From positions 1 through 46,076 of the forward strand of contig JAFRDM010000078.1 of assembly GCA_017403885.1 (NCBI GenBank): a stretch of 46,076 nt of DNA, written 5' to 3'. A model generated the notes under the pieces. The model saw only the letters and a program-made list of their open reading frames with translations. It made no database searches and was not told the DNA's origin. Source of the DNA: Oscillospiraceae bacterium (lineage in GTDB: Bacteria; Bacillota; Clostridia; Oscillospirales; Oscillospiraceae). A program made the position numbers and the translations under genes. Positions 4,000 to 18,784 of the stretch are shown piece after piece (within the stretch, counting starts at the first letter, position 1; each line of letters begins with the position of its first letter).

Positions 4000-4419
4000 T
4001 TACGCTTTCGGCGGCATAACAGTCGCTTTGCCCTTGATCACAACGTCGCCATTCTGATTGGTGCAAACGGTGTCAAGAATGGCGCGATTTTTCTCGGGGA
4101 TCAGTTCAGCCACCGTAGCCGTGGCCGTGATGGTATCGCCGATGGCAACGGGCTTGGTGAAGCGGAGCTCCTGCCCCATATAGATGGTGCCGGGACCGGG
4201 CAGCAGCGTACCGAGCACGGCGGAAATCAGGCCTGCCGAAAGCATGCCGTGGGCGATCCGCTTGCCGAACATGCCTTTTTCAGCTTCGGTCTGGTTGACG
4301 TGAGCAGGGTTGAAGTCGCCGCTGATGCCGGCATACAGATACACGTCGGTTTCGGAAATGGTCTTGGTGAAAGAGGCGCTGTCGCCGATCTTCATTTCTC
4401 CGATAGTAATACCTTTCAT
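4000..4419 (-). CDS. MaoC-family (R)-specific enoyl-CoA hydratase
   Basis: A 139-residue single hot-dog-fold hydratase. The catalytic motif is intact: YAGISGDFNPAHVN supplies Asp35 and His40, and FGKRIAHGML follows. The length fits PhaJ-type (R)-hydratases. The expected reaction is reversible hydration of a trans-2-enoyl-CoA to the (R)-3-hydroxyacyl-CoA. GGAGG stands before the ATG at 4419. The gene is divergent from the KAS III-like gene and shares with it a control region holding two identical palindromes. It is therefore very likely the hydration step of the acyl-CoA pathway encoded across 4.6-18.8 kb. Confidence 0.88.
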   Translation of the reverse strand: MKGITIGEMKIGDSASFTKTISETDVYLYAGISGDFNPAHVNQTEAEKGMFGKRIAHGMLSAGLISAVLGTLLPGPGTIYMGQELRFTKPVAIGDTITATATVAELIPEKNRAILDTVCTNQNGDVVIKGKATVMPPKA

Positions 4420-4456
4420 TTCAAAGCCTCCTGAAAATCAGATTTGATCGTGAAAG

Positions 4457-4476
4457 ACATGAATAGCAGTTCATGT
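4457..4476. promoter_or_regulatory. Palindromic operator, copy 1 (hydratase side)
   Basis: The sequence ACATGAATAGCAGTTCATGT has 7-bp perfect arms (ACATGAA/TTCATGT) and a 6-base spacer. It sits 3 bases downstream of the -10 box of the minus-strand promoter, an ideal position for repression. An identical copy lies at 4607-4626. The form is typical of TetR-family sites; the TetR gene at 13547 is the natural candidate. Confidence 0.85.
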
Positions 4477-4479
4477 AGA

Positions 4480-4508
4480 ATCATATCACGAGCCCTATTT
4501 GCTGTCAA
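4480..4508 (-). promoter_or_regulatory. Promoter of the MaoC-type hydratase
   Basis: On the minus strand, TTGACA (complement of 4503-4508), 17 bases, then TATGAT (complement of 4480-4485). This is a near-consensus housekeeping promoter, and the operator copy 1 covers the start of the transcript. Confidence 0.85.
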
Positions 4509-4568
4509 TGCCAAAAACAAATAAGTAATTTTGTACAAACTGTCAAGACAATAATACGAGCCTTTTCG

Positions 4569-4597
4569 TTGACATTGAAGATTCACATTGTTATATT
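4569..4597 (+). promoter_or_regulatory. Promoter of the KAS III-like/liv operon
   Basis: TTGACA at 4569-4574, 17-base spacer, TATATT at 4592-4597. Operator copy 2 starts 9 bases after the -10 box and would cover the transcription start. Confidence 0.85.
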
Positions 4598-4606
4598 TAT
4601 AGCAGA

Positions 4607-4626
4607 ACATGAATAGCAGTTCATGT
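4607..4626. promoter_or_regulatory. Palindromic operator, copy 2 (operon side)
   Basis: This is a 20-base exact duplicate of the palindrome at 4457-4476, 150 bases away. It lies between the plus-strand -10 box and the ribosome site of the gene at 4663. Confidence 0.85.
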
Positions 4627-4662
4627 GAATTAAAATTCGTTTGCGGTAAGGAGGACAATCAT

Positions 4663-5688
4663 ATGAGTGATAAAGTTCCCGTAGGCATCGTAGGTATCGG
4701 CATCTATCTGCCGAAGAAGATCATGACGGCTAAGGAAATTTCCGACGCCACCGGAGGCGTCTGGAGCGAGGACGCCGTTAAGAACAAACTGGGCATAATT
4801 CAGAAGTATGTTCCCTCCGACGATCCCTGCGACGGAACGCAGGAAATGGGCGCTCTGGCTGCGCTGGACTGCCTGAAGAACACGGGCATTGACCCGCTGG
4901 ACATCGACGCGATCCTCTGCTTTGGCGAGGAGTGGAAGGAGTATCCTCTCACGACTTCCGCCTGCTATATTCAGGACCGTATCGGCGCAAAGAACGCCTG
5001 GGGCATCGATGTACAGAACCGCTGCTGCACCACGGTTTCGGCCATGAAGCTGGCCAAGGATATCCTGATCGCCGACGACGAGGTCAAGACGATCCTGGTC
5101 GCGGGCGGCTATCGCAACTGCGACTTCATTGACTTCACCGACAGCGGCGTGTCCTTCATGTTCAACCTGGCCGCGGGCGGCGGCGCGGTGATCCTGCAGA
5201 AGGGCTACGAGAAGAACCAGCTCCTCGGCACGCACATCATGTCCGACGGCTCGGTCGTCCATACCTGCGGTTCTAAAGTCGGCGGCATTACGGAACGTGT
5301 CACCGCGGAGAACGTGAAAGAGTTCGGGATGCTCCGTCTGATGGATTCCCCGAAGATGAAGGGCCTGCTGAACACGGTCTCCATGCCGAACTGGTATCAC
5401 TGCATCGACGAGGCGCTGCGCAAGTCCGGAAAAACCCGCGCGGACATCGGATATCTCGATATCCTTCACATCAAGCGTTCCGGGCATCTCGGCATGCTCA
5501 AGGACCTCGGCCTCACGGAGGATCAGACCATTTATCTTGAAAACTATGGCCACGTCGGTCAGGTCGACCAGATCCTGTCTCTCAAGCTCGGCCTTGAGGC
5601 AGGCAAGGTCAAGCCGGGCACCGTCGTCTGCATGATCGCGGCGGGCATCGGCTATACCTGGGCGGCAAACGTGATTCAATGGGGTTGA
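4663..5688 (+). CDS. 3-oxoacyl-ACP synthase III (FabH/KAS III)-like condensing or thiolytic enzyme
   Basis: A 341-residue thiolase-fold protein. ATG 4663 follows AAGGAGG at 4648-4654 and is preferred to an in-frame start at 4609, which falls inside the operator. Active-site Cys122 lies in QNRCCTTVSA and the His in DILHIKRSGH (His269). Where FabH enzymes have Asn in YGN, this protein has YGH (His297), giving a Cys-His-His arrangement. FabH joins acyl-CoA to malonyl-ACP; relatives outside fatty-acid synthesis use other acyl-CoA partners. As first gene of an import and acyl-CoA oxidation operon it may catalyse the C-C bond step, cleavage or condensation, of the pathway. That role is inference. 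Confidence 0.8.
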   Translation: MSDKVPVGIVGIGIYLPKKIMTAKEISDATGGVWSEDAVKNKLGIIQKYVPSDDPCDGTQEMGALAALDCLKNTGIDPLDIDAILCFGEEWKEYPLTTSACYIQDRIGAKNAWGIDVQNRCCTTVSAMKLAKDILIADDEVKTILVAGGYRNCDFIDFTDSGVSFMFNLAAGGGAVILQKGYEKNQLLGTHIMSDGSVVHTCGSKVGGITERVTAENVKEFGMLRLMDSPKMKGLLNTVSMPNWYHCIDEALRKSGKTRADIGYLDILHIKRSGHLGMLKDLGLTEDQTIYLENYGHVGQVDQILSLKLGLEAGKVKPGTVVCMIAAGIGYTWAANVIQWG

Positions 5689-5692
5689 TTTT

Positions 5693-6628
5693 TTGTTCAT
5701 TTCCTTTCTTTCAACCATTTGCGGTTCGCTTTTGAGCATGTGCGTAACGGCGCTGGCGGCTTTCGCCGTCACGATCATCTTCCGCACCTCCACAACGGCG
5801 AACTTTGCCCAGGGCGCGATCTCGGCTTTCGGCTGCTATGTCGTCGCCGACCTCTTGAATAAGAAGGGCGTCCCGGTCTATCTCGGCGTGTTCGGCGGTA
5901 TCCTTGTCGGCGTCGCGATCGGCGTGTTCATCGACCTGCTCGTTTTCCGCAAGGGCCGTCATGTCAACGAACTGGGGAAGCAGATCATCACGATGGGCTT
6001 TGTATCGCTCTTCTTCGGCGGCATCCCGCTCATATTCGGAACGCCTGAGCGGATCCCGTTTGAAGCCTTCTACAACACGGTCAAGGCCAAGACCTCTCCG
6101 AACTTCGTGATCCCCGCGATGGGCGGCGAGATCGTCATCACCAAGCATGCTTTGATCTGCCTGGGCATCACCGTCGTCATACTTGCGGTTCTGTTTCTGC
6201 TGCTGAAATTCAGCAAGTGGGGTCTCGGCGTACGCGCCACGGCCTCGAGCGAATTCACGGCAGAGCTCATGGGCATCGACACGCATGTGATCACCGCGAT
6301 CTCTTGGGCTTTGGCCTGCGGCCTCGGCGTTCTGGCAGCCGTCATGTACGCCGGAGGCGGCACGTCCATCTCCGCGGGCTTTATGACGACGATCCAGGTC
6401 AACGCTTTTCTGGCCTGTATCCTTGGCGGCTTCTCCACCTTTTACGGGCCGGTCATCGGCGCCGTGCTGATCCCGCTTGCCGCGAGCTGTGTCGGTTTTC
6501 TGGCCAACTTCAAGGGCTTCTATGGGATTTCCCGCTGGCAGATGGTCATTGTCTACGTCTTGCTGCTGATTGCCATTCTGATCAAACCCGAAGGGCTGTT
6601 CGGCAAGAAGACCGTCAAGAAGGTATGA
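5693..6628 (+). CDS. livH: Branched-chain amino acid-type ABC transporter permease LivH
   Basis: A 311-residue membrane protein of about eight hydrophobic segments. The start is TTG at 5693, 4 bases after the upstream stop, with only weak ribosome-site sequence (GGGG), so translation is probably coupled. Family features are the early TTANFAQGAISAFG segment and the cytoplasmic loop KWGLGVRATASSEFTAELMGID, which contacts the ATPase. The partner permease, two ATPases and the binding protein follow in the usual order. Substrates of this importer class range from Leu/Ile/Val to amides, urea and small aromatic or aliphatic acids. The gene context favours a carboxylic acid here. Confidence 0.88.
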   Translation: MFISFLSTICGSLLSMCVTALAAFAVTIIFRTSTTANFAQGAISAFGCYVVADLLNKKGVPVYLGVFGGILVGVAIGVFIDLLVFRKGRHVNELGKQIITMGFVSLFFGGIPLIFGTPERIPFEAFYNTVKAKTSPNFVIPAMGGEIVITKHALICLGITVVILAVLFLLLKFSKWGLGVRATASSEFTAELMGIDTHVITAISWALACGLGVLAAVMYAGGGTSISAGFMTTIQVNAFLACILGGFSTFYGPVIGAVLIPLAASCVGFLANFKGFYGISRWQMVIVYVLLLIAILIKPEGLFGKKTVKKV

Positions 6629-6636
6629 GGTGATTT

Positions 6637-7722
6637 ATGGATATCAAACAGGAATATCTCAGCGCCGCATACCCGGAAAGCGCAAAAAAGGCCGCAGGCG
6701 GAAATGTTCGGGCGGTTTTTGCCAATCCGCTGGCGCAGATCGCGCTGGTCGGGGTCGTGCTCGCGCTCGTGCAGTTTCTGGCGCTTGGCGGCATGATCTC
6801 CTCGGCCTTTGCCTATGCGCTGGGCAACACGCTGATCTACGCGATTGTGGCGATCGGCTTCTGTCTGCTGCTGGGTTACTCCGGCCTCGCCTCGCTGGGA
6901 ACGGCCGGCTTTATCGGCCTTGGCTCCTATGTGGCTTTCTATCTGATCGAGGGCATGGGCGCGCCGTACTATGTCGCACTCTTTGTGACGCTCGCGGTGT
7001 CGATCGCGCTGGGCGTGATCGTCGGCTTCATTTCGCTTCGGATAGAGGGCATCTATCTGGCGATCATGACGCTGGCGCTGGCGGAGATCATCCGAAGCCT
7101 GCTGATGGTGCTCAAGGCGACGATCAAAATCAACATCAACAACATCGTTTTATTCGGCGTCAACGTCAACGAGAAAGCCGTCTATCTTCTGATTACGGCC
7201 ACTTTCATTATTCTCATGGCGCTGACCTCCAATCTCATCCGCAGCCCCGTCGGCCGTGCGATGCTGGCCATGAAGGACAGCACCTCGGCCGCTCAGGCGA
7301 TGGGCATCAGCCTGATGAAATACCGGCTGCTCGCCTTTGTCATCTCCACGATCTACGCGGCGATGGGCGGCCTGCTGTACATGATGTACGTGCGCAACAT
7401 GACCACCGCGACCTCGACGCTGCTCACGCTGAGCACGTCGCTGAATATTCTCGGCGCGGTCATCATCGGCGGCGCCAAGTCGCTCTGGGGCACGACCTTC
7501 GGCACTTTCATCATCTACGGCCTGCAGTCCATGTTCCTCAGCAAGATCCGTTTCTTTGTTGAAAACCCGGCCTTTATCACCATGATCACCGGTCTTTTGA
7601 TCATCGTTGTGGTGATGTTTTTCCCCGGCGGCTTTGCCCAGATGCTCAGCTCCCTGCGCCTCTGGCTGCGCCGCAAGCGGGTCGAAAGGAGGATCCGCGA
7701 TTATGTCGGCAACGAGAGCTGA
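6637..7722 (+). CDS. livM: Branched-chain amino acid-type ABC transporter permease LivM
   Basis: A 361-residue permease, starting 8 bases after livH. The first 30 residues are soluble, followed by many membrane spans. The LivM signature is present: GYSGLASLGTAGFIGLGSYV near residue 87 and the coupling loop SPVGRAMLAMKDSTSAAQAMGIS. The C-terminal tail is strongly basic (LRRKRVERRIRDYV). It overlaps the following ATPase gene by 20 bases, which means coupled translation and matched subunit amounts. Confidence 0.88.
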   Translation: MDIKQEYLSAAYPESAKKAAGGNVRAVFANPLAQIALVGVVLALVQFLALGGMISSAFAYALGNTLIYAIVAIGFCLLLGYSGLASLGTAGFIGLGSYVAFYLIEGMGAPYYVALFVTLAVSIALGVIVGFISLRIEGIYLAIMTLALAEIIRSLLMVLKATIKININNIVLFGVNVNEKAVYLLITATFIILMALTSNLIRSPVGRAMLAMKDSTSAAQAMGISLMKYRLLAFVISTIYAAMGGLLYMMYVRNMTTATSTLLTLSTSLNILGAVIIGGAKSLWGTTFGTFIIYGLQSMFLSKIRFFVENPAFITMITGLLIIVVVMFFPGGFAQMLSSLRLWLRRKRVERRIRDYVGNES

Positions 7723-9064
7723 GCGGCGCCTTCTGGAAAAGGCCAGACGTTTGCGCATTGAGATCGGGATGCTGGAAGCGGCGCGCGAACTGCAGATCGA
7801 AAAGGCCGCGGCCAAAAAAGCTGCGCGTTCGGCTGAGCGCGCGCGTGCCGCCGGGCGGGAGCTTGCGGAGAAAAGCTTTGAAAAGCTCGGTGCGGACGAG
7901 ATCCGCCGCGCGATCACAGAGAAGCGGCTGCGTGAGGAAAACGAACGCTATGCGGCGCTTCGCAAGGAGATCCTGCTCAGCGGCTATCTGCTGAGCGACA
8001 AAGACAACGAGGCGCTTGCCGATGCGCATACGGCGCGCCTGGAGCGTATTCGTGAAAACACGGCCGCCGAGCTGTCAGAGCTGTCCAATCCCGCACAGGG
8101 ACAGCTTCCCATTCCGACTGTGGACGAGCCGGAAGAGACTTCCTCTGCCGAAGCGATCCGAGCCAGGTTCGATGAACAGATCAGTCAAGCGCGAAAGCGT
8201 CTCCGGGAGGTCGAGCGGCGACTGGAATCCGGCGCGGCATCGACGGAGCGCACCGAGCTGGAAGAGGGCCTTGTCCTGAGTGTAAAGGAACTCAAAATGT
8301 ACTTCGGCGGCGTTAAGGCTGTCGACGGACTGAGCTTCGATGTGCGCGAGGGTGAGATCTTCGGCCTGATCGGTCCGAACGGCGCGGGCAAAACCACGGT
8401 TTTCAACTGTATCACTCAGTTTTACAAGCCCACGGGCGGAAAACTGCTGTTCCGCGGAAGGGAAAACGAAGTCCTGGATCTGACGAAAGAGAAGGTGCAC
8501 GACGTTATCCTGCACGGCATCGTCAGAACCTTCCAGAACGTGGAGGTCGTGCCGGAGCTGACGGTACTGGAAAACCTTCTGATCGCCGGACACCGCCAGT
8601 ATTCCTCCGGGATCGCGGCCAGCGCGCTGCATCTGCCAAAGCTGCGGCGCGAAGAGGAGATCATCCGCCGCAAAGCCGAAAAGGTCCTGCAGTTCATGGG
8701 ACTTACCGCTTTTTCCGGCGCGTACGCTTTCGGCCTGCCCTATGGCATCCTCAAGAAAATTGAGATCGCGCGCACCCTGATGTGCTCTCCGCGTCTCATT
8801 ATCCTCGACGAGCCGGCGGCCGGCCTCAACGACGCGGAGACCGCGGAGCTTGCGTCGCTGATCCGGCGCATCCGCGACGAATACCGCTGCACGATCCTGC
8901 TGGTCGAGCATGACATGGGTCTGGTGATGGACGTCTGCGACAGGATCTGCGCGATCTCCTTCGGCAAGCTGCTGGCTTTCGGCACGCCCGAGGAGATCCA
9001 GACCGATCCGAACGTACAGCAGGCGTATCTCGGCGTAGAGGAGGATGACGATGGCACTGCTTGA
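7703..9064 (+). CDS. livG: LivG-type ABC ATPase with a long N-terminal coiled-coil extension
   Basis: A 453-residue protein. ATG 7703 follows AAGGAGG (7686-7692) and lies inside livM. Residues 1-190 are not part of any LivG I know. They are a Lys/Arg/Glu/Ala-rich region with heptad-like helices (ERRLLEKARRLRIEIGMLEA; later QISQARKRLREVERRLES), split by a Pro-rich break near 135-145. The ATPase domain starts near 192. Walker A is GPNGAGKT (224-231), the Q-loop Gln lies in RTFQN, and Walker B is LIILDEP (365-371), followed by AAGLN and the VEHDM switch His. The signature, usually LSYGQ, is LPYGI here. It should pair with LivF to drive the importer. Confidence 0.87.
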   Translation: MSATRAERRLLEKARRLRIEIGMLEAARELQIEKAAAKKAARSAERARAAGRELAEKSFEKLGADEIRRAITEKRLREENERYAALRKEILLSGYLLSDKDNEALADAHTARLERIRENTAAELSELSNPAQGQLPIPTVDEPEETSSAEAIRARFDEQISQARKRLREVERRLESGAASTERTELEEGLVLSVKELKMYFGGVKAVDGLSFDVREGEIFGLIGPNGAGKTTVFNCITQFYKPTGGKLLFRGRENEVLDLTKEKVHDVILHGIVRTFQNVEVVPELTVLENLLIAGHRQYSSGIAASALHLPKLRREEEIIRRKAEKVLQFMGLTAFSGAYAFGLPYGILKKIEIARTLMCSPRLIILDEPAAGLNDAETAELASLIRRIRDEYRCTILLVEHDMGLVMDVCDRICAISFGKLLAFGTPEEIQTDPNVQQAYLGVEEDDDGTA

Positions 9065-9770
9065 AATCAGAAACCTCAAGGTCAACTACGGCCCCATCCA
9101 GGCTGTCCGGGGGATCGACATCACGGTGGAAGAGGGCGGTATCGTCGCGCTCCTCGGCGCCAACGGCGCGGGCAAGACCACCACGCTTCGCACGGTCAGC
9201 GGCGTCATCAAGCCCAGCGGCGGCAGCATCCAGCTCGCCGGGCAGGAAATCTCCCAGCTTCGGGCCTGCAAGGTCGCGCGCATGGGGATCAATATGTCCC
9301 CGGAGGGCCGCCTTGTCTTTGCCGGGCTGACGGTGGAGGAAAACCTGCGCGCCGGCGCCTACTGCATCCGCTCCCGCGCGGAGACCGAGAAGAATATGAA
9401 GCGCGTCCTCACGCTGTTCCCGCGGCTGGAGGAGCGACTGCGCCAGCAGGCCGGAACGCTCTCCGGCGGCGAGCAGCAGATGCTCGCCATTGCCAGAGCG
9501 CTCATGGCCAGCCCCAAGCTGCTGATGCTTGACGAACCGAGTCTCGGCCTCGCGCCGCTGGTCATCAAGGACATCTTCCGCACGCTGCAGGAGATACGCA
9601 ACGAGGGGACCACGATCCTGATCGTGGAGCAGAACGCGCTCGCAACGCTCAAGATCGCGGATTACGCCTATGTATTGGAGCTCGGCAAGATCAGCATGCA
9701 GGGCCCCGCGGAAGAGCTCATCCACGACGAAAAACTGATCGAGGCTTATCTCGGCGACAAAAAATCGTAA
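9051..9770 (+). CDS. livF: LivF-type ABC ATPase
   Basis: A 239-residue ATPase of normal LivF length. ATG 9051 is preferred over ATG 9045 because GAGGAGG ends at 9043. It has Walker A GANGAGKT, the LivF hallmark NMSPEGRLVFAGLTVEENL, signature LSGGEQQ, Walker B LLMLDEP followed by SLGLAP, and switch region VEQNA. It overlaps livG by 14 bases. It is the second nucleotide-binding subunit of the importer. Confidence 0.92.
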   Translation: MALLEIRNLKVNYGPIQAVRGIDITVEEGGIVALLGANGAGKTTTLRTVSGVIKPSGGSIQLAGQEISQLRACKVARMGINMSPEGRLVFAGLTVEENLRAGAYCIRSRAETEKNMKRVLTLFPRLEERLRQQAGTLSGGEQQMLAIARALMASPKLLMLDEPSLGLAPLVIKDIFRTLQEIRNEGTTILIVEQNALATLKIADYAYVLELGKISMQGPAEELIHDEKLIEAYLGDKKS

Positions 9771-9819
9771 TCAGTCGCGAAAGCGATAAAAAAACAGGAA
9801 AAAATAAGGAGGAACAAAC

Positions 9820-11247
9820 ATGAAAAAACTGCTGGCACTCCTGCTCGTGTTCGCACTCTGCCTTTCTCTGGCGGCCTGCGGAAGCGGCCTGACCAATGAG
9901 CCGAGCACCCCGGCTGACAAACCCGCGGATCAGCCGACCCAGGCGGACAAGCCCGCCGACACCCCTGCGGACAAGCCCGCCGACACTCCCGCTGACGAGC
10001 CCGCGCCCGCGGGCGACGGCTACGCGCCTTTCGTTCCGGTGCAGGGCGTGGACGACAGTACGATCCTCGTCGGCAACACGGCGGCTACGACCGGCGCTTT
10101 CGCCACGGTCGGCATTCCGTTCAACGCCGGCATGGAGGCCGCCTTCAAGGCCTACAACGACGCCGGCGGCTTTGACGGCCGTTCCATCCAGCTCATCCAC
10201 TATGACGACGGCTTTGACGCCGCGCAGGGCCTGACCTACACGCAGACCCTCGTCGAGACCGACCACGTCTTCGCCATCGTCGGCCACTTCGGCACCAACA
10301 CCGTCGGCGCGACGCTCGACTACCTCAAGCAGATGGGCATCCCCATGGTCTATGCCGCCACCGGTATCGCGGAGCTCTATCAGGAGGGCGCGACCGGCAA
10401 CGACAAGGTCATCTACCCCGTGCAGCCCATCTACAACTCCGAAGGCCGCGTGCTGCTGGCCCGCGCGCTCGCTCCCGCTGAGGGCGGCATGGGTCTCGGC
10501 GGCACGAAGATCGGCGTGATCTCCACGACGGACGACGCCGGCGTCGGTCTCCTTTACGGCGTGATGAAGCAGAACGAGACGCTCAACGCCGATATCGTCT
10601 ATCAGGAAGTTGACGCGGCGGCCACCGACTACTCCGCGGCTGTGAACGTGCTGAAGAACGCCGGCTGCGACGTGGTCGTCGCCTGCATGAACCAGGCGCC
10701 GCTCGCGATCCTCATGTCTTCGATGCGCGACGCCAACTTCAACGCGAACGTCGTCACCTCCTATGTCAACGCCTCCGCCGTCACGCTCGGAGCTTTCGTT
10801 GAGAACGGCTCCGTGACGGAAGACCGCCGCGTCTACTCCACGGCCTGGCTCGACACCAGCACCGAGGAAGGCATGGCCGGCTATCTCGAGTTCTACGCCG
10901 CGATGAGCGCCTGGGAGCTTGCCAACGGCGGCTCCGGCAATGACAATGCCCTTAACTCCTACGCCATGGCCGGTTACATCGCCGGCAGCCTCTTCGTCCA
11001 GGCGCTGCAGGCTCTGCATGATCAGGGCCTCGAGCTCAACTGGGCCAACTTCAACGACGTCATGGAAGCCACCGACTTCATGATCCCCATGGGCGGCGAG
11101 ATCAACTTCCACAACGGCGACCGTCTGGCCATCACCTCTCTGGCACTGAACACCATCTCCCTCGAGCCGGGCGAGAGCGGCTACTACGAGCTTCAGGTCG
11201 TCAGCCCGATCATGAGCCTCGACGACGTGCTTGCAACGATCCAGTAA
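9820..11247 (+). CDS. Liv-type ABC substrate-binding lipoprotein
   Basis: A 475-residue lipoprotein with lipobox LAAC (Cys at residue 20). A linker of imperfect PADKPAD/TPADKPAD repeats (residues about 27-66) lifts the binding domain off the membrane. The rest is a type I periplasmic-binding fold (Peripla_BP_6), starting TILVGNTAATTGAFATVGIPFN, with HFGTNTVGATLDYLKQMGIP and VISTTDDAGVGLLYG. AGGAGG stands before ATG 9820. It supplies the substrate specificity of the LivHMGF importer. The bound ligand cannot be read from sequence. Confidence 0.9.
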   Translation: MKKLLALLLVFALCLSLAACGSGLTNEPSTPADKPADQPTQADKPADTPADKPADTPADEPAPAGDGYAPFVPVQGVDDSTILVGNTAATTGAFATVGIPFNAGMEAAFKAYNDAGGFDGRSIQLIHYDDGFDAAQGLTYTQTLVETDHVFAIVGHFGTNTVGATLDYLKQMGIPMVYAATGIAELYQEGATGNDKVIYPVQPIYNSEGRVLLARALAPAEGGMGLGGTKIGVISTTDDAGVGLLYGVMKQNETLNADIVYQEVDAAATDYSAAVNVLKNAGCDVVVACMNQAPLAILMSSMRDANFNANVVTSYVNASAVTLGAFVENGSVTEDRRVYSTAWLDTSTEEGMAGYLEFYAAMSAWELANGGSGNDNALNSYAMAGYIAGSLFVQALQALHDQGLELNWANFNDVMEATDFMIPMGGEINFHNGDRLAITSLALNTISLEPGESGYYELQVVSPIMSLDDVLATIQ

Positions 11248-11265
11248 CTGTGTCATAATCGGATA

Positions 11266-11289: not shown

Positions 11290-11313
11290 AATGCAAAAAT
11301 CGGAGGACAGATC

Positions 11314-12630
11314 ATGGATTATACGTCTAAAATCATCTCTCTGGAAAAGGCTCTGTCGCTTGTAAAAAGCGGCGATACCATCGTCACGGGCCTCGGCGCG
11401 GCCGAGGCGGGCCTGATCATGGAAAACATCCATACACTCAACGGCAAGGTCAAGGACATCCGGATCGTCAACTGCAATCCGTCTCATACCTGCGAGTTCT
11501 ACAAACCCGAATATGCGGAGAACTTCAGCGTGGACGGCTGGTTTTACGCGACGCCGCTGCGCAAGGCTCACGCGCAGGGCAATATGTCTTACATCCCGAA
11601 CAATCTTCATTTTGCGGCCACCAAGTGGCTGTATCGCAACAAGCCCAATATTTTCTGCGCATCGGCTTCCATGCCGGATAAAAATGGCTTCATTTCACTG
11701 TCTACGTCCAACACGTATGAGCGCCGCATGATGGAGGCCGCGGACATCACGATCCTGGAGATCAACCCGAATTTCCCCTTTGTCTACGGGGATGTTGTGA
11801 TTCACTATACAGACGTGGATTATCTTCTGGAAGCGGACTATCCCGTTCCCACGCTTCCCGACGTGCCGTTCAACGACAAGGACCGCGAGATCGGCCGCCT
11901 GATCAGCCAGTATGTGCCGGACGGCGCCTGCCTGCAGCTCGGCATCGGCGGTATTCCCAACGCCGTGGCCGAGTACTTGAAGGAGAAGAACGATCTCGGC
12001 ATCCACACGGAGCTGATCACCAGCGGCATGGCGGAGCTTGTCAAGATGGGTGTTGTCACCAACAAGCGCAAAAACATCAACCGCGGGCAGATGGTTGCCA
12101 CGATGATCCTCGGCAGCAAGGAGCTCTTTGAATTCTGCGATCACAACTCCGGCGTAGCGCTCTATGACGGCGCCTGGGTCAACGATCCCTATACCATCGC
12201 GCAGAACGACAATCAGATCTCGATCAACACGAGCCTGGAGGTCGATCTGACCGGCCAGTGCGCCAGCGAGTCGATCGGCTCGCGCCAGTTCTCCGGCACG
12301 GGCGGCCAGGCGGATACCGCCATCGGCGCTCAGATGTCCAAGGGCGGACGCTCGATCATCGCACTCTACTCCACGGCCATGATCAAGGACAAGGCCACCG
12401 GCGAGCGCCACGAGGTCTCCAAAATTGTTCCGCAGCTGCAGACCGGCGCGGCCGTCAGCCTCTCCCGCAACGACGCGGATCTGATCATCACCGAGTACGG
12501 CGTGGCGGATCTGCGCGGCGCGACCATCAAGGAGCGCGTGGAGAGCCTGATCGCGATCGCGCACCCGAAGTTCCGCGACGAGCTTTGGGATCGCGCTCTC
12601 GAGTGCGGCATCATCGGCAAAAAGTGGTAA
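11314..12630 (+). CDS. Acyl-CoA:carboxylate CoA-transferase (4-hydroxybutyrate/butyrate family)
   Basis: A 438-residue enzyme of the acetyl-CoA hydrolase/transferase family. Typical motifs are LQLGIGGIPNAVAEYL, GIHTELITSGM, INTSLEVDLTGQCASES and FSGTGGQADTAIGAQMSKGG. Glu233 in GIHTE falls close to the position of the catalytic Glu238 known for the 4-hydroxybutyrate CoA-transferase of Clostridium aminobutyricum. The reaction moves CoA from acetyl-CoA or another donor to a free acid. Following the importer directly, it is best read as the activation step for the imported acid. A second, distinct paralogue lies at 26265. Confidence 0.87.
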   Translation: MDYTSKIISLEKALSLVKSGDTIVTGLGAAEAGLIMENIHTLNGKVKDIRIVNCNPSHTCEFYKPEYAENFSVDGWFYATPLRKAHAQGNMSYIPNNLHFAATKWLYRNKPNIFCASASMPDKNGFISLSTSNTYERRMMEAADITILEINPNFPFVYGDVVIHYTDVDYLLEADYPVPTLPDVPFNDKDREIGRLISQYVPDGACLQLGIGGIPNAVAEYLKEKNDLGIHTELITSGMAELVKMGVVTNKRKNINRGQMVATMILGSKELFEFCDHNSGVALYDGAWVNDPYTIAQNDNQISINTSLEVDLTGQCASESIGSRQFSGTGGQADTAIGAQMSKGGRSIIALYSTAMIKDKATGERHEVSKIVPQLQTGAAVSLSRNDADLIITEYGVADLRGATIKERVESLIAIAHPKFRDELWDRALECGIIGKKW

Positions 12631-12636
12631 GACTGT

Positions 12637-13452
12637 ATGGCAACTTTCCGCTTTGAAGGCCGCCAGGTCTACTACGAAACTTACGGACAGGGCAAGCCGC
12701 TGCTCCTGCTGAACGGCATCATGATGTCCTGCGCGAGCTGGAAGGAATTCATCGAGCCGCTGAGCGCCATGAACAGGCTGATCCTCGTGGACATGATGGA
12801 CCAGGGAAAGACGGACAAGCTCCGCGAGGCCTACGACCACGCGGTGCAGGTCTGGCTGGTGCACGCGCTGCTGGAGCACCTGGAGATCGAAAAGCTGTGC
12901 ATTGCCGGTATCTCCTACGGCAGCGAGATCGGGCTGGAATACGCCATCGCTCATCCGGAGAAGGTGGAGCGACTGCTGCTCTTCAATGCGACGGCGGCGA
13001 CCGGGCCGTGGCTCGACGATATCGGCAAGGCGTGGAACCTCGCCTCGAGCGACCCCATGCAGTACTATTACACGGCGATCCCCGTCATCTACTCGCCGCG
13101 CTTCTATACGCAGAACAACGACTGGATGGAGCGGCGGCGCGGACTGCTGGGGCCGGTGTTCGGCAATCGGGAATTCATCGAATCCATGATCCGTCTGACC
13201 AACAGCTCATCCAACTTCGACGTGCGAGACCGGCTCGATCGGGTCCTCTGCCCCACGCTGATCGTCTCCTGCCGACAGGATTATCTGACGCCCGCGGAGG
13301 AGCAGCAGTATCTGGCGGCACACATCCGTGACAGCCACTACGTCATGATCGAGAACAGCGGCCACGCCTCCATGTACGAACAGCCGATGCTGTTCGCCAG
13401 CCTGATCGTCGGCTTTGCCAACGCCGCAAAGGATCGCTATAACATCGTCTGA
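12637..13452 (+). CDS. Alpha/beta hydrolase (first copy)
   Basis: A 271-residue alpha/beta hydrolase. The oxyanion region, normally HG, reads LLLNGIMMSCASW, so the usual His is Asn. Nucleophile elbow GISYGSEIG has Ser near residue 93. The acid lies in VSCRQDYLTP and the His in ENSGHASMYEQP. It starts 6 bases after the CoA-transferase with almost no ribosome site, so it is coupled to it. The fold covers esterases, thioesterases and C-C hydrolases of beta-diketones; which one applies is open. Confidence 0.8.
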   Translation: MATFRFEGRQVYYETYGQGKPLLLLNGIMMSCASWKEFIEPLSAMNRLILVDMMDQGKTDKLREAYDHAVQVWLVHALLEHLEIEKLCIAGISYGSEIGLEYAIAHPEKVERLLLFNATAATGPWLDDIGKAWNLASSDPMQYYYTAIPVIYSPRFYTQNNDWMERRRGLLGPVFGNREFIESMIRLTNSSSNFDVRDRLDRVLCPTLIVSCRQDYLTPAEEQQYLAAHIRDSHYVMIENSGHASMYEQPMLFASLIVGFANAAKDRYNIV

Positions 13453-13481
13453 GGCAGAGGGAAAACCGAATATGCTCTTGT

Positions 13482-13509
13482 TGAATTGACCGATGATCTG
13501 TGTTAAAAT
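13482..13509 (+). promoter_or_regulatory. Possible promoter of the tetR gene
   Basis: TTGAAT (13482-13487), 16 bases, TAAAAT (13504-13509). The gap between the hydrolase and tetR genes is 94 bases. No copy of the 4457/4607 palindrome is present here, so the regulator may not control itself through that site. Confidence 0.4.
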
Positions 13510-13546
13510 AATCCAATCATACTAAAGAGACGGAGCGAATAAACAA

Positions 13547-14254
13547 GTGGACGAACTTCTGAAGATGCCTCAAACCCCCAAAGGAATGGAAACCCTCAAC
13601 AATATCCTTTCCGCTGCCGCGCAGCTCATCTACGAGAAGGGCTATTACGGCGCCAACATCGCAGATATCACCAAGCTGGCCGGCGTGGCGACAGGGACCT
13701 TTTACGTGTATTTCAGCAGCAAGATCAGTCTTTACCGCTACCTTCTGCTGCAGTTCGGACACCAGATCCGAAAGGAAATGTCCCAGAAAACCGCCAACTG
13801 CCAGACGCGGCGCGAAGCGGAGCGCGAGGGTCTCCGGGCATGGCTGGAATACGTCCGCAAGCATCCCTATGTGTACAACATCATTTGGGAATCGCTCTAC
13901 GTCGACCGCAATTTGTTCAAGGAATATTACGAGACCTTCAGCAAAGCGTATTCGTCAGGGCTGTCGCTCGCGCAGGAAAACGGCGAGGTCAAGGACATCG
14001 ACCTCTCGGTCCTGTCCTATATGCTGATGGGTATTTCCAACTTCGTCGGTTTGAAATACTGCCTGCTCGGCGACGGAAGCGCCGACCTCGACACGGTCGT
14101 GGACGAGGCCATGCGCGTGCTGGACGGCGGCATGTTCACGGGAGAAACGCCCGTGAAGAAGGAGCGGGCCGCCAAGCCCCGGAAGGACATGAACTTTCGG
14201 GTCGAGGTGGACTTCGGATTTCTTGAAAACAGAGAACGCGAAGGAGACAAATAA
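13547..14254 (+). CDS. TetR/AcrR-family transcriptional regulator
   Basis: A 235-residue regulator; the start is GTG 13547 after GGAG at 13532-13535. The N-terminal helix-turn-helix spans about residues 18-65, with ILSAAAQLIYEKGYYGANIA and GVATGTFYVYFSSKISLYRY, the standard TetR recognition region. The C-terminal half is a helical ligand-binding and dimer domain, ending in a basic tail. Family members are usually repressors released by a small molecule or acyl-CoA. Placed inside the catabolic locus, it is the best candidate for binding the palindromes at 4457, 4607 and 15805. Confidence 0.9.
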   Translation: MDELLKMPQTPKGMETLNNILSAAAQLIYEKGYYGANIADITKLAGVATGTFYVYFSSKISLYRYLLLQFGHQIRKEMSQKTANCQTRREAEREGLRAWLEYVRKHPYVYNIIWESLYVDRNLFKEYYETFSKAYSSGLSLAQENGEVKDIDLSVLSYMLMGISNFVGLKYCLLGDGSADLDTVVDEAMRVLDGGMFTGETPVKKERAAKPRKDMNFRVEVDFGFLENREREGDK

Positions 14255-14256
14255 GC

Positions 14257-15279
14257 ATGTTTTATGAAGTACAAAAGGCAGAGACTTCCCGTCTGACGAC
14301 CGCCTTTTACCACGCCGGCAAGGCGGGGCTGCCGAAGCTGATGCTCATCCACGGCAACGCCTCCTCGGCCAAGTTTTATCTTCCGCTGATGAAGCGGCTG
14401 GAGGATCGCTTTGAGCTCGTGGCTCCTGACCTGCGCGGGTTTGGCGATACCGAGCCCAAGCCCATCGACGCCCGCCGCGGTATGCGCGACTTCTCCGACG
14501 ATGTGGACGCCCTGGCCGAGACGCTCGGCTGGGAGCGCTTCAGCCTGCTCGGCTGGTCCATGGGAGGCGGCGTTGCGATGCAGTACGCCATCGACCACAG
14601 CGAAAAGCTGGAGAGCCTGATCCTGGAGGCTCCGCTCTCTCCCTTCGGCTTTGGCGGCACCTACGGCGAGGACGGCAAAAAGCTCCAGCCGGTCGGCCTG
14701 GCCAGCGGAGGCGGCTGCGCCAACGCGCAGCTGATCGCCTGCCTGCAGAGCGGCGAGCGCAGCTTCATCGCGCAGACCATCGATGGCGTATATGTCGCGC
14801 CGCCGTATCAGATCGACCCGGAGCTCAAGGAGATGTTCATCGACAGCGTGCTGTCCACCCGTGTCGGCGACGGTCTGTATCCCGGCGACAAGACGGCGGC
14901 CCCCGTATGGCCCTTCTTTGCCGCGGGAGAAAACGGCGTCTGCAACACGATGGCTCCCAACTACTGCGATCTTTCCCCGATCGCGGAGATCCCCAACAAA
15001 CCCCCGATCCTCTGGATCCGTGGCGCGTCGGATATCATGGTTTCTGACACAAGCCTGATGGACCTGGCCTGGCTCGGACAGCTTGGTTATGTGCCGGGCT
15101 GGCCCGGCGCGGAAGCCTGTCCGCCGCAGCCCATGCTGAGCCAGACGCGCTATGTGCTTGAGAAGTACAAGGCCAACGGAGGCAAATATGAGGAGGTCGT
15201 CATCGCGGGCGGACACGGTCCGATGCTCGACAACGAGGACGGCTTCGTTGCGGAGCTCCTGCGTTTCCTCAGCGAATAA
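14257..15279 (+). CDS. Alpha/beta hydrolase (second copy)
   Basis: A 340-residue alpha/beta hydrolase starting 2 bases after tetR, with GAAGGAG upstream. It has the oxyanion motif LIHGNASSAKFY, nucleophile elbow GWSMGGG (Ser near 104), a likely acid in RGASDIMVSD and the His in AGGHGPML near the C-terminus. A long cap insert separates the core halves (residues about 130-255). It is only distantly related to the hydrolase at 12637, so two different hydrolytic steps, or one on each side of CoA activation, are likely. Substrate unknown. Confidence 0.83.
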   Translation: MFYEVQKAETSRLTTAFYHAGKAGLPKLMLIHGNASSAKFYLPLMKRLEDRFELVAPDLRGFGDTEPKPIDARRGMRDFSDDVDALAETLGWERFSLLGWSMGGGVAMQYAIDHSEKLESLILEAPLSPFGFGGTYGEDGKKLQPVGLASGGGCANAQLIACLQSGERSFIAQTIDGVYVAPPYQIDPELKEMFIDSVLSTRVGDGLYPGDKTAAPVWPFFAAGENGVCNTMAPNYCDLSPIAEIPNKPPILWIRGASDIMVSDTSLMDLAWLGQLGYVPGWPGAEACPPQPMLSQTRYVLEKYKANGGKYEEVVIAGGHGPMLDNEDGFVAELLRFLSE

Positions 15280-15299
15280 AAACAGAAAGGCGATGCCTA

Positions 15300-15764
15300 T
15301 TGAAAGCGGTTTATGCCGGAAGCTTTGACTGCTATACAAACGGGCATCACGATATCGTGCGAAAAGCCAGCCGTCTGTTCGACGAGGTGCACATCGTCAT
15401 CGCGGTCAATTCCGCGAAGAAACGGAGCTATCCCGCCGAACAGATGGCCGAGGCCATCCGCGCGGCTTTGGAGCGCGAAGAGCTCTCCAACTGCAAGGTC
15501 AGCATTTACAGCGGTATCGTTGCGGAGTATTGCCGCGAGCATGAGATCGACTATTTCATTCGCGGGCTGCGCAACAACCTCGACTACAACTATGAGGAAA
15601 ACGTGGCCAATGTGAACAAGCTGATTATGCCGGACATGGACACCATTTATTTTCGCGCGGTAGCGCCCGCGATCTCCTCCTCCATGGTGCGCGAGCTGCA
15701 CTCCTTCGGCAAGGACGTATCCGCGTACGTCCCTGCCGAGGTGTGGGAGAGGATCAAGGCATAG
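15300..15764 (+). CDS. Phosphopantetheine adenylyltransferase-like protein (CoaD paralogue)
   Basis: A 154-residue nucleotidyltransferase. The start is TTG 15300, with AGAAAGG about 10 bases upstream. N-terminal YAGSFDCYTNGHHDIV carries the T/HxGH nucleotide-binding motif, FIRGLRNNLDYNYEENVANVN matches the CoaD phosphopantetheine region, and ISSSMVREL matches the C-terminal ISS-S motif. CoaD forms dephospho-CoA from 4-phosphopantetheine and ATP. It is clearly divergent from textbook CoaD, for example SFDCYTNG instead of SFDPxTNG. In this operon it could supply CoA for acid activation or have changed substrate. Whether the genome has another coaD cannot be seen. Confidence 0.78.
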   Translation: MKAVYAGSFDCYTNGHHDIVRKASRLFDEVHIVIAVNSAKKRSYPAEQMAEAIRAALEREELSNCKVSIYSGIVAEYCREHEIDYFIRGLRNNLDYNYEENVANVNKLIMPDMDTIYFRAVAPAISSSMVRELHSFGKDVSAYVPAEVWERIKA

Positions 15765-15804
15765 CGTCAAGCGGAACAAAGACATATTTTTTTACCCGTA
15801 AAAC

Positions 15805-15818
15805 TGAATGACAATTCA
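15805..15818. promoter_or_regulatory. Third operator-like palindrome, before the acyl-CoA dehydrogenase
   Basis: TGAATGACAATTCA has the same TGAA-N6-TTCA layout as the core TGAATAGCAGTTCA of the sites at 4457 and 4607 (11 of 14 bases equal). It sits in the 74-base gap before the dehydrogenase gene. It suggests that acd-etfBA belongs to the same regulon. Confidence 0.6.
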
Positions 15819-15838
15819 TATTGAAAAGGAGAGTACTC

Positions 15839-16978
15839 ATGTTCAGACTGGATGAAGAGCATCTGGAGCTTCAGGCTTCCTTTAAAGAATTTGCGGAAAA
15901 TGAGATCAAGCCCCTGGCCAAGGAGATCGACGAGACCGAACGCTTCCCCCTTGAGAGTGTGAAGAAGATGGCCGAGATGGGCATGATGGGCCTGCCCATC
16001 CCCGAGGACTACGGCGGCAGCGGCATCGACCAGCTCGGCTACGTGCTGGAGATCGAGGAGCTGGCGAAGGTCTGCGCGACCACGGCGATCATCGTCTCCG
16101 CCCACACCTCTCTCTGCTGCTGGCCGATCCTCAAGTTCGGCACCGAGGAGCAGAAGCAGAAGTATCTTGTGCCTCTGGCCCGCGGCGAAAAGCTCGGCGC
16201 TTTCGCGCTGACCGAGCCCAGCGCCGGGACCGACGCCTCCATGCAGAAGTCCACGGCCGTTCTCGACGGCGACAGCTATGTCCTCAACGGCAGCAAAATC
16301 TTCATCACCAACGCCGGCGCGGCGGACGTCTTCATCGTCTTTGCCATGACGGACAAGGAGCAGGGGACCCGCGGCATCTCCGCCTTTATCGTCGAGCGCG
16401 ATATGCCCGGCTTCAGCATGTCCAAGCCGGAGAACAAGATGGGTCTGCGCGCCTCCTCCACCTGCGAGCTGATCTTCGACAACGTCCGCATCCCGAAGGA
16501 AAATCTGCTCGGCCAGGAGGGCAAGGGCTTCAAGATCGCGATGGCGACTCTTGACGGCGGCCGTATCGGCGTGGCCGCGCAGGCCACCGGCATCGCGCAG
16601 GGCGCGATCGACGAGGCCGTGAAGTACACGGCCGAGCGCATCCAGTTTGGCCGCCGCATCTCTCAGTTCCAGAACACGCAGTTTACGCTGGCCGATATGC
16701 AGACGAAGACGGACGCCGCCCGCCTGCTGGTATGGCGCGCCGCCGCGGCCGAGCAGGACGGCCTTCCCTACACGGCGCCCGCCGCCATGGCAAAGCTTTT
16801 TGCCGCGGAGACCGCCTCCTACGTTACCAACCGCGCGGTACAGCTTTTCGGCGGCTACGGCTACTCGAAGGACTACCCCGTGGAGCGCATGATGCGCGAC
16901 GCAAAAGTGACCGAAATCTACGAAGGCACCAGCGAAGTGCAGAAGATGGTCATTTCCGGCTTCATGGGTGTGAAGTAA
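15839..16978 (+). CDS. Acyl-CoA dehydrogenase
   Basis: A 379-residue FAD enzyme of normal family length. ATG 15839 follows AAAAGGAG and is preferred to an upstream TTG at 15821. Domains in order are an N-terminal helical domain, a middle beta domain with [17 protein letters not shown] and FITNAGAAD, and a C-terminal helical domain with [19 protein letters not shown] and [20 protein letters not shown]. The catalytic Glu is the one in IYEGTSEVQ. It oxidises a short or medium acyl-CoA to the 2-enoyl-CoA, passing electrons to the EtfAB encoded immediately after. The product is the substrate type of the MaoC hydratase at 4000. Confidence 0.93.
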
Positions 16979-16988
16979 GGGAAACGGC

Positions 16989-17774
16989 ATGAAGATTCTG
17001 GTATTTGTCAAGCAGGTCCCCGACACAGACGACGTCAAGCTCGATCCCAAGACCGGCAACCTGCGCCGCGACGGGGTCAAGAGCATGATGAATCCCATGG
17101 ACGCCAACGCGATCGAAGCCGCGCTTCAGCTCAGGGAGAAGCACGGCGGAAGCGTCTGCGTCGTCACGATGGGTCTGCCGATGGCGACCGAGGTGCAGAA
17201 AAAGGCGCTCGGCATGGGCTGCGACGAGGCATATCTGCTTTCGGACCGTCCTTTCGGCGGCGCGGATACGCTTGCGACCTCCTATACGCTGGCCAAGGCG
17301 GCGGAGAAGATCGGCGGCTATGATCTGCTGCTCTTCGGGCGTCTCGCGACCGACGGCGACACGGCGCAGACCGGGCCGGCCGTGGCGGCACAGCTCGGTA
17401 TCCCGCAGATCAGCCTGGCCTCTTCCATCGCTGTCGAGGACGGCTGGGTATATTGTGACCGCGATCTCGGCGACACGGTGCAGCGCGTCCGCGCGAAACT
17501 GCCCGCCGTCGTCACGGTCAACGGCGGGATCAACAAGCCGCGTTACGCCACGCCCATCAACATCATGCGCGCGCAGAAAAAGCCGCGCACGACCTGGACG
17601 GCGGCGGATCTCGGCTGCGATATGACGAAGATCGGAACGCCCGGCTCTCCCTCTTCGACAAAAAAGGTCTTCGAGCCGGAGAAGCGAAACACCGATACGC
17701 AGTATCTGACGGGCAGCCCGGAGGATATGGCCAGGGCGCTGGCGGACCTGCTCGAAAACGAGCATCTGCTTTGA
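16989..17774 (+). CDS. etfB: Electron transfer flavoprotein beta subunit
   Basis: A 261-residue EtfB starting 10 bases after the dehydrogenase. It has N-terminal MKILVFVKQVPDTDDVKLD, the nucleotide-binding part NPMDANAIEAALQLRE and GRLATDGDTAQTGPAVAAQLG, and the ETF-beta signature region around LPAVVTVNGGINKPRYAT. It forms the heterodimer with EtfA, accepting electrons from the acyl-CoA dehydrogenase. Clostridial Etf complexes may bifurcate electrons to ferredoxin; sequence alone does not decide this here. Confidence 0.93.
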   Translation: MKILVFVKQVPDTDDVKLDPKTGNLRRDGVKSMMNPMDANAIEAALQLREKHGGSVCVVTMGLPMATEVQKKALGMGCDEAYLLSDRPFGGADTLATSYTLAKAAEKIGGYDLLLFGRLATDGDTAQTGPAVAAQLGIPQISLASSIAVEDGWVYCDRDLGDTVQRVRAKLPAVVTVNGGINKPRYATPINIMRAQKKPRTTWTAADLGCDMTKIGTPGSPSSTKKVFEPEKRNTDTQYLTGSPEDMARALADLLENEHLL

Positions 17775-17788
17775 GAGGCGGTGGGAAT

Positions 17789-18784
17789 ATGAAATCGGAT
17801 TATCAGGGAATCTGGGTCTTTGCCGAACAGGAAAACGGCAAGCTGCACCCCACCGTGCTCGAGCTGCTGGCAAAATCCAAAGAGCTGCAAAAGCATAACG
17901 GCGAGAAGATCACCGCCGTTCTGCTCGGCGCGGACGTCTCGGCGCTTGCCGACACGCTCTTCTCTTACGGCGCGGACGCCGTCCTGCTGTGCGAAAACGA
18001 AGCGCTCCGCAGCTACAGCGCACGGCCGTATCAGAAGGCGCTGACACAGCTTTCCGAAAAGTACAGGCCGTCGATCATCCTGTACGGTGCTACGCCGCTG
18101 GGCCGTGATCTGGCTCCGCGCGTGATGGTCTCGCTCGACACCGGCCTGACCGCGGATGCGATCGACCTCGGCTTTGACGAGGATGGCGTGTTCTATCAGA
18201 CGACGCCCGGATACGGCGGTAAGATCCTTGCTCACATCGTCATTTTGGAGCGCCGTCCGCAGATGGCCACAGTCCACGCACAGATCTGTTCGCCAATTGA
18301 GCCGATTGCCGATGCGTCCGGTGAGCTGATCGTGGAAAAGCTCAACATTGAGCCGGACGGTGATTACGAGGTTCTGGAGACACGCAGCGCGGAGAAGAGC
18401 GGCGAATCTCTTGCGGAAGCAAAAGTCGTTGTGGCAGGTGGCCGTGGCGTAAAGACCGAGGAAGATCTTGCCATGCTGCGAGAATTGGCTGATCTTTTGG
18501 GCGGGCAGTTGGCTTCTTCACGCCCGCTTGTGGACAACGGTATGCTGCCGCATGACCGTCAGATCGGCCAGAGCGGCGCGACCGTCAGCCCGGACTTGAT
18601 GCTCAACATCGCGATCTCCGGCTCGGTCCAGTATCAGCTCGGTATGCAGAAGGCCAAATGTATCGTGGCGATCAACCAATCTGAGGACGCGCCGATCTAC
18701 GACATCGCGCACATCGGTGCTGTCACAGATTACAAAAAACTCGTTCCCGCGCTGATCGCGAAGATCAAAGCGAGAAAACAGTAA
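17789..18784 (+). CDS. etfA: Electron transfer flavoprotein alpha subunit
   Basis: A 331-residue EtfA. ATG 17789 follows GAGGCGGTGGG and is preferred to a TTG at 17771 that overlaps etfB. The N-terminal domain starts GIWVFAEQENGKLHPTVLEL. The C-terminal FAD domain is intact, with VAGGRGVKTEEDLAMLRELA, ASRPLVDNGMLPHDRQIGQS and IAISGSVQYQLGMQKAKCIVAINQ. No N-terminal ferredoxin domain is fused. It ends the operon, and a strong terminator follows. Confidence 0.93.
   Translation: MKSDYQGIWVFAEQENGKLHPTVLELLAKSKELQKHNGEKITAVLLGADVSALADTLFSYGADAVLLCENEALRSYSARPYQKALTQLSEKYRPSIILYGATPLGRDLAPRVMVSLDTGLTADAIDLGFDEDGVFYQTTPGYGGKILAHIVILERRPQMATVHAQICSPIEPIADASGELIVEKLNIEPDGDYEVLETRSAEKSGESLAEAKVVVAGGRGVKTEEDLAMLRELADLLGGQLASSRPLVDNGMLPHDRQIGQSGATVSPDLMLNIAISGSVQYQLGMQKAKCIVAINQSEDAPIYDIAHIGAVTDYKKLVPALIAKIKARKQ

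Follow-up and report, generated by a model that had tools for sequence, protein, structure and literature searches.

What acid does a five-part importer bring into a cell when its genes lie beside a CoA-transferase, two alpha/beta hydrolases and acyl-CoA enzymes, and what does a KAS III-like protein do among them? The question is raised by positions 4000-18784 of a 46,076-nucleotide stretch of DNA (the window), which is contig C58 (JAFRDM010000078.1) of an Oscillospiraceae genome (assembly GCA_017403885.1; 1.98 Mb, 91 contigs, 78% complete). The original prediction described this region as an import-to-oxidation locus for an unknown carboxylic acid, with a gene set for which it knew of no named pathway. 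We assigned gene families by profile scores (Pfam, PF; NCBIfam, NF; TIGR) against curated cut-offs, together with nearest PDB matches, and the results point to a narrower answer, which we hold at a probability of about 0.6: the substrate is (R)-3-hydroxybutyrate (3HB), probably including short oligomers from the breakdown of poly-3-hydroxybutyrate (PHB), and the genes for its uptake and fermentation form a regulon under TetR control. All the genes named in the prediction are present and fall into the expected families, and, as it had stated, neither a 3-hydroxyacyl-CoA dehydrogenase nor an ordinary thiolase is among the families found there. The plus strand reads KAS3-LivH-LivM-LivG-LivF-LivK-CoAT-ABH1-TetR-ABH2-CoaD-ACD-EtfB-EtfA, with intergenic gaps of at most 94 bp, and MaoC lies on the minus strand, divergent from KAS3. 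The features are as follows.

4000..4419, minus strand: MaoC, a MaoC-type (R)-enoyl-CoA hydratase (PF01575, 85 bits)
4457..4476, no strand: 20-bp palindrome ACATGAATAGCAGTTCATGT, putative TetR operator at the MaoC promoter
4480..4508, minus strand: sigma-70-like promoter for MaoC, TTGACA-17-TATGAT (11/12 match)
4569..4597, plus strand: sigma-70-like promoter for KAS3, TTGACA-17-TATATT (11/12 match)
4607..4626, no strand: second, identical copy of the 20-bp palindrome, putative TetR operator at the KAS3 promoter
4663..5688, plus strand: KAS3, a KAS III-like thiolase-superfamily protein (NF005308/PRK06840; PF08545 and PF08541)
5693..6628, plus strand: LivH-type permease (PF02653, BPD_transp_2, 96 bits)
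6637..7722, plus strand: LivM-type permease (PF02653, BPD_transp_2, 107.8 bits)
7703..9064, plus strand: LivG-type ATPase (NF008449, 284 bits over residues 214-467 of a 476-residue open reading frame; also BCA_ABC_TP_C)
9045..9770, plus strand: LivF-type ATPase (NF008626, 249 bits)
9820..11247, plus strand: LivK-type binding lipoprotein of the Peripla_BP_6 type (PF13458, 130.5 bits), its N-terminus ending in LAAC
11314..12630, plus strand: CoAT, a CoA-transferase of the acetyl-CoA hydrolase/transferase family (PF13336, 193 bits; PF02550)
12637..13452, plus strand: ABH1, an alpha/beta hydrolase (nearest PDB entry 4q3l, MGS-M2, 3.5e-75; GISYG at residue 91)
13547..14254, plus strand: TetR-family regulator (PF00440, 48.9 bits)
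14257..15279, plus strand: ABH2, a diverged relative of the intracellular short-chain polyhydroxyalkanoate (PHA) depolymerase (NF050089, 110.2 bits, cut-off 300)
15300..15764, plus strand: CoaD paralogue (TIGR01510, 145.5 bits, cut-off 103.3)
15805..15818, no strand: operator core TGAATGACAATTCA, upstream of ACD
15821..16978, plus strand: ACD, a short-chain acyl-CoA dehydrogenase (NF042972 acryloyl-CoA reductase, 546 bits, below the cut-off of 640; YEGT at residue 367)
16989..17774, plus strand: EtfB (PF01012, 150.8 bits)
17771..18784, plus strand: EtfA (PF01012 and PF00766)

The grouping of these genes is far above chance. One scan with KAS3 as the query collected 77 related loci (numbered with an L below) from Oscillospiraceae, Lachnospiraceae, Erysipelotrichaceae, Tissierellia, Alkalibacterium, Bacillus, Papillibacter, Clostridium homopropionicum, Anaerolineaceae, Spirochaetales and Thermotogales, among others, the closest named relative of the window KAS3 being that of a goat-omasum Oscillospiraceae metagenome-assembled genome (98% identical). 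LivG was found in 60 of the 63 loci with at least 4.5 kb of rightward sequence and CoAT in 46 of the 53 with at least 8 kb, which bears out the prediction that import and CoA chemistry of a carboxylic acid are combined here, together with a KAS III-like protein of unexplained role. Full flanks (at least 7 kb to the left and at least 8 kb to the right of KAS3) were available for 41 loci; LivG was present in 39 of these, CoAT in 35, LivK in 34, TetR in 33, a PHA-depolymerase-type hydrolase in 32, ABH1 in 31, a short-chain dehydrogenase/reductase (SDR) in 30, a thiolase in 28, MaoC in 21 and ACD in 15. Because the loci were gathered by KAS3, its constancy in them proves nothing, and searches starting from the depolymerase and from CoAT serve as reciprocal tests. 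In the latter, the best 22 CoAT relatives other than its own copy (at least 45% identity, 398 genomes) included 20 that lay within 8 kb of KAS3. Absences of single genes from the lists of relatives are weak evidence, since simple calling of open reading frames was used and antisense frames may hide genes. An order-level sample of 295 genomes contained 5 in which NF005308 exceeded its cut-off, counting the source genome. Beyond chromosomes, 10 of 72,556 plasmid records carried a KAS3 relative, all of them haloarchaeal; in the three examined (L186-L188) it was 34-35% identical and directly followed Liv permeases, accompanied by MaoC, a hydrolase, an AMP-ligase and an SDR in one, by MaoC, a hydrolase and an AMP-ligase in another, and by Liv genes only in the third. 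Phage records gave no KAS3 match at 1e-20.

By its operator sequences, the locus is a regulon. The gap between MaoC and KAS3 holds the two divergent sigma-70-like promoters, found in a search that returned 17 matches of any quality against 5.7 expected, and each is followed by the same 20-bp palindrome. The core of this palindrome, TGAA-N6-TTCA, occurs three times in the window against 0.59 expected (1 of 100 shuffles reached three), the third site lying directly before ACD. A stricter form, TGAAYN4RTTCA, has five sites in the whole genome, three of them at the locus; the other two, one ahead of a small HMA-type protein (contig C29) and one within an lspA-like frame (C84), are uninformative. 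Among relatives, a site with the N6 spacing was found no more than 350 bp upstream of KAS3 in 18 of 78 loci (17 of 77 when the window's own copy is removed) against 1.24 expected, and 42 of the 77 related loci have at least one site within 400 bp upstream of a cassette gene (75 sites), compared to 1-12 loci for the control spacings N2-N5 and N7-N12 and 0-11 for other palindromes. The targets are mainly KAS3, MaoC, thiolase and SDR, which are the genes that open the operons of each arrangement. The motif is not universal, since only 4 of 20 distant loci (L158-L177) have a site and several of them carry sigma-54 or BTAD regulators instead. Because TetR is present in 33 of the 41 full-flank loci, it is the putative operator binder, presumably acting as a repressor at TGAA-N6-TTCA. 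The single strand, the short gaps, the divergent promoters and the repeated palindrome together support co-regulation in silico, and the operator ahead of ACD suggests a second promoter there. The original prediction had named separate transcripts with unrelated inducers as evidence that would speak against it, but the picture is a different one, with a single operator motif shared by MaoC, KAS3 and ACD.

The identity of the acid is suggested mainly by what accompanies KAS3 elsewhere. In the co-occurrence sample, 398 genomes of the phylum, NF005308 was over its cut-off in 36, and 19 had a match over the cut-off of NF050089, the model of the intracellular short-chain PHA depolymerase; both were present in 17, where about 1.7 would be expected (Fisher p 4e-18), and in 14 of these 17 the two genes lay within 10 kb of each other. 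Eight of the 17 genomes belong to one taxonomic family; counted by family, KAS3 was present in 9 of the 11 families that bear the depolymerase. The hydrolase beside KAS3 itself exceeded the NF050089 cut-off of 300 in L003 (309.5 bits) and L055 (370.9 bits), and in L165 an esterase of the PHB-depolymerase family lies about 7 kb from KAS3 (TIGR01840, 175 bits, cut-off 107.85; PF10503; PDB 8daj, 1.8e-149). The class III PHA synthase, the only synthase class covered by the search, was over its cut-off in just 2 of the 36 KAS3 genomes; the esters therefore would mostly not come from the cell's own granules, and a role in PHB storage was rejected on this count.

Consistent with a four-carbon substrate, L160 encodes in a row crt, ACD, EtfB, EtfA, hbd, thiolase, MaoC, KAS3 and CoAT, a full C4 set in which the C4-specific models for crt (433.6 bits, cut-off 394) and hbd (486.2 bits, cut-off 408) are both exceeded. 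In C. homopropionicum, KAS3-CoAT-MaoC is followed by 3-oxoacid CoA-transferase A/B and a TIGR00366 protein that we take to be AtoE-like, and its MaoC is 66% identical to that of the window. This species ferments 3-hydroxybutyrate (PMC4591306). The depolymerase linkage, the L165 esterase, the C4 set and C. homopropionicum all point to (R)-3-hydroxybutyrate or its oligomers, so that the acid is no longer wholly the "unknown" one of the original prediction. Its view of the set as one without a known pathway is overtaken too: SDR and thiolase belong to most cassettes of relatives, so the dehydrogenase and thiolase it had missed are cassette members, and contig C48 of the source genome carries a FadB-like protein (NF052272, 524.8 bits, below the cut-off of 999) adjoining a thiolase (TIGR01930, 429 bits, cut-off 240.55). 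A close SDR was not found in the source genome, where the best match, at a contig end, had 37% identity. The cassette SDR of relatives is FabG/PhaB-like. Across the 41 full-flank loci, MaoC and SDR occur together in 14, SDR alone in 16, MaoC alone in 7 and neither in 4; they are alternative enzymes, both expected to handle (R)-3-hydroxyacyl-CoA.

As judged from the gene complement, activation, oxidation and cleavage of 3HB together with a butyrate branch all appear to be encoded, with CoAT, MaoC and ACD-EtfBA at the locus and the rest on C48. In the proposed pathway, LivKHMGF would import 3HB or its oligomer, and ABH1 and ABH2 would cleave ester bonds, ABH1 perhaps as a hydrolase of oligo-3-hydroxybutyrate or of another ester. 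CoAT, whose nearest PDB entry is 3eh7, annotated as 4-hydroxybutyrate CoA-transferase (1.9e-96), would activate the acid by moving CoA from acetyl-CoA onto 3HB. MaoC, in which the domain carries G-D-x-N-P-x-H (YAGISGDFNPAH, residues 29-40), presumably the hydratase-2 motif, would interconvert (R)-3HB-CoA and crotonyl-CoA. One part of the crotonyl-CoA would then be reduced to butyryl-CoA by ACD-EtfBA; the other part would pass through hydration to (S)-3HB-CoA, oxidation and cleavage into two acetyl-CoA, for which the FadB-like protein and the thiolase of C48 are available. In relatives, the SDR could act directly on (R)-3HB-CoA. KAS3 would carry out or assist the thiolysis of acetoacetyl-CoA, the C-C step, and acetate kinase, which stands beside thiolase in a cluster of 10 related loci (one member confirmed), would yield ATP. 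TetR would repress MaoC, ACD and the genes from KAS3 onward for as long as no acyl-CoA inducer is present. The predicted oxidation therefore stands for one half of the pathway only, because ACD-EtfBA more likely runs in the direction of crotonyl-CoA reduction. The sum of these steps, 2 3HB to 2 acetate and butyrate, is the known stoichiometry (PMC10096456). It is also the chemistry expected of 3HB and PHB fermentation by Ilyobacter and C. homopropionicum.

We then consider KAS3 itself. It belongs to NF005308 (440.1 bits, cut-off 315) and shares with FabH the fold family and the positions of the catalytic Cys and His. Unlike FabH, it scores 103.5 bits against the FabH model TIGR00747 (cut-off 292.1), and of the Cys-His-Asn triad of FabH, Cys121 and His269 are kept and the Asn position aligns with His297. 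Plain FabH was rejected on these two grounds. Among 78 sequences, the window's own copy included twice, Cys121 is conserved in 78, His297 in 77, Glu90 in 76 and His269 in 75; Glu90, Lys271 and His275 are invariant residues that FabH does not have, Lys271 being the same throughout an alignment of 44 sequences. Cys-His plus a base fits non-decarboxylative Claisen or retro-Claisen chemistry. A thiolase role is preferred because a base stands beside Cys-His and because no canonical thiolase lies within the flanks in 13 of the 41 loci; granted the 3HB reading, we put a thiolase-like role at slightly less than an even chance. A bolder proposal is possible but doubtful: KAS3 might represent a new mechanistic class of the thiolase superfamily, with Cys-His-His and a Glu base, that produces CoA thioesters during the catabolism of PHB and 3HB, by acetoacetyl cleavage or by thiolysis of 3HB esters that keeps the ester energy, and with Liv import it might form an unrecognised polyester-scavenging module reaching from gut and rumen anaerobes to haloarchaeal plasmids. 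Separately, six loci have a second KAS III-like protein near KAS3 or CoAT (L046 at 18544, L159 at 11623, L163 at 1205, L169 at 7975, L173 at 6760 and L176 at 6937), which keeps the catalytic Cys, has the His replaced by Gln and the Asn by Tyr, and is possibly a partner subunit.

Several observations weigh against 3HB as the substrate or against the roles proposed. In the source genome, NF050089 had no match over its cut-off, and TIGR01840, over its cut-off in 1 of the 36 KAS3 genomes (L165), had no match at all. The branch of the window (with L002, L008 and L031) lacks both SDR and a PHA-depolymerase-type hydrolase at the locus, so with none over the cut-off in the genome the substrate here may have shifted. 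ABH1 is closest to a metagenomic esterase for which no natural substrate is stated. Lipase_2-type proteins occur in L159, L160, L164 and L174; when two such proteins, neighbours of the cassette and of secreted type, were compared with PDB, the match to PhaZ7 was weak (5e-4 to 2e-3) and lipases scored better. Thiolase accompanies KAS3 in 28 of the 41 full-flank loci, where KAS3 would be redundant; the 4 loci with neither MaoC nor SDR and the 35 of 77 with no operator near a cassette gene, many of them short contigs, also count here, as does the 78% completeness of the source genome. Finally, the cassette is also present in Papillibacter cinnamivorans, an occurrence that would suit cinnamate or crotonate just as well. 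With these limits, the case for a C4 substrate comes mostly from relatives, and we hold it at the probability stated at the outset.

Of the alternatives, the one that survives best keeps the same machinery and changes or broadens the substrate to another (R)-3-hydroxy acid or ester, such as 3-hydroxyvalerate, other short hydroxyalkanoates or crotonate. In its favour, ABH1 and ABH2 of the window fall below the PHA-depolymerase cut-offs, the LivK branches of different loci are far apart (34-45% identity for many), and the importer can be replaced, in L174 by a sodium symporter. We nevertheless regard it as unlikely, given that the C4-specific crt and hbd models are exceeded in L160, that C. homopropionicum is a 3HB fermenter with KAS3-CoAT-MaoC, and that the linked depolymerase is of the short-chain family. 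Less probable again is side-chain beta-oxidation of cinnamate-like arylpropenoic acids, in which KAS3 would be a thiolase specific for aryl substrates. P. cinnamivorans, which converts cinnamate to benzoate and acetate, has MaoC-KAS3-Liv-CoAT-ABH1-TetR with 63-71% identity for MaoC, CoAT and KAS3. The literature searched yielded no paper on Papillibacter and crotonate. However, the conserved set includes no aryl-specific partner, PHA depolymerase and C4 genes are linked to it, and the cassettes of Alkalibacterium and Erysipelotrichaceae have no ACD or MaoC, which together make this reading improbable.

KAS3 could also run an HMG-CoA-synthase-like reaction in reverse on a branched hydroxy acid. 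Glu90, aligned by eye, lies at the position of the HMG-CoA synthase base, and archaeal HMG-CoA synthase models do match KAS3, but at 47.5 bits (TIGR00748, cut-off 353.35) and 52.1 bits (NF003274, cut-off 244), far under both cut-offs; with the Asn replaced by His, and with a reverse reaction that would need thioester formation without energy input, we judge this very improbable. That the Liv genes encode a usual importer of branched-chain amino acids and have acyl-CoA genes as unrelated neighbours, to which the Liv-type architecture might point, can be dismissed: KAS3-Liv-CoAT is retained in the testable loci, KAS3 adjoins Liv permeases on haloarchaeal plasmids too, the operator is common to the cassette, and among the matches listed all Liv subunits are under the equivalog cut-offs.

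Compared to known systems, 3HB as the substrate places the locus beside a fermentation known from physiology, and the likeness to Ilyobacter is one of physiology only: the literature searched describes no importer, regulon or KAS III-like protein for it, and searches of titles and abstracts gave no description of this locus. The importer has the five parts of the Liv system (two permeases, two ATPases and a binding lipoprotein), whereas each subunit is below the Liv/urea equivalog cut-off among the matches listed (LivK scores 46.6 bits against PRK15404, cut-off 477) and the whole is tied to KAS3 and CoAT. The NF050089 depolymerase is over its cut-off beside KAS3 in relatives, in contrast to ABH2 of the window, which does match the PHB depolymerase 8ynv in PDB (2.7e-21) and has GWSMG at residue 99. 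The crt-bcd-etfBA-hbd-thl butyrate operon is present as a full set beside KAS3 in L160, whereas the window locus has ACD-EtfBA only.

Other features of the locus and its surroundings were noted. The LivG open reading frame opens at 7634, with a likely ATG start at 7703 and the core from 8273; the N-terminal extension before the core (window 7634-8272) is charged and about 190-210 residues long. Of 62 loci that have both LivM and LivG, 21 show a gap of more than 350 bp ahead of the LivG core, consistent with such an extension there too. CoaD is a paralogue as predicted, the second copy on contig C28 scoring 175.7 bits with TIGR01510, and perhaps has a role in CoA supply; the paralogue is also present in the near relatives L001 and L002, and L047, L049 and L052 have a CoaD-like match (32-34%) directly after TetR, perhaps the housekeeping copy. 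Two more CoAT-family genes of the same genome, at 26250-27572 of the window and at 76848-78137 of contig C46, share 41% and 40% identity with CoAT. The distant cassettes of L160 and L164 each have next to them a small soluble protein that contains a signalling domain of chemotaxis receptors (18120-18929 and 2795-3610, respectively). To the left of the locus (2934-3621) are a TnpV transposon-encoded protein and a DUF6809 protein, and elsewhere in the window are an RHS-repeat protein (28984-30417) and a heavy-metal-type E1-E2 ATPase (37215-39731).

Thus, the gene content described by the original prediction is confirmed and its interpretation partly supported. The physiology of 3HB fermentation is already known; what appears to be new is the locus, with KAS3 as its most interesting part. 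If the 3HB reading is true, it would give genes, an importer and a regulator to a fermentation known mainly from physiology, and it would single out one well-conserved thiolase-superfamily protein, KAS3, whose chemistry is directly testable. It would also provide markers for the anaerobic breakdown of PHA bioplastics, and many organisms known from gut and rumen metagenome-assembled genomes could turn 3-hydroxybutyrate, from PHB or as the host ketone body, into butyrate.

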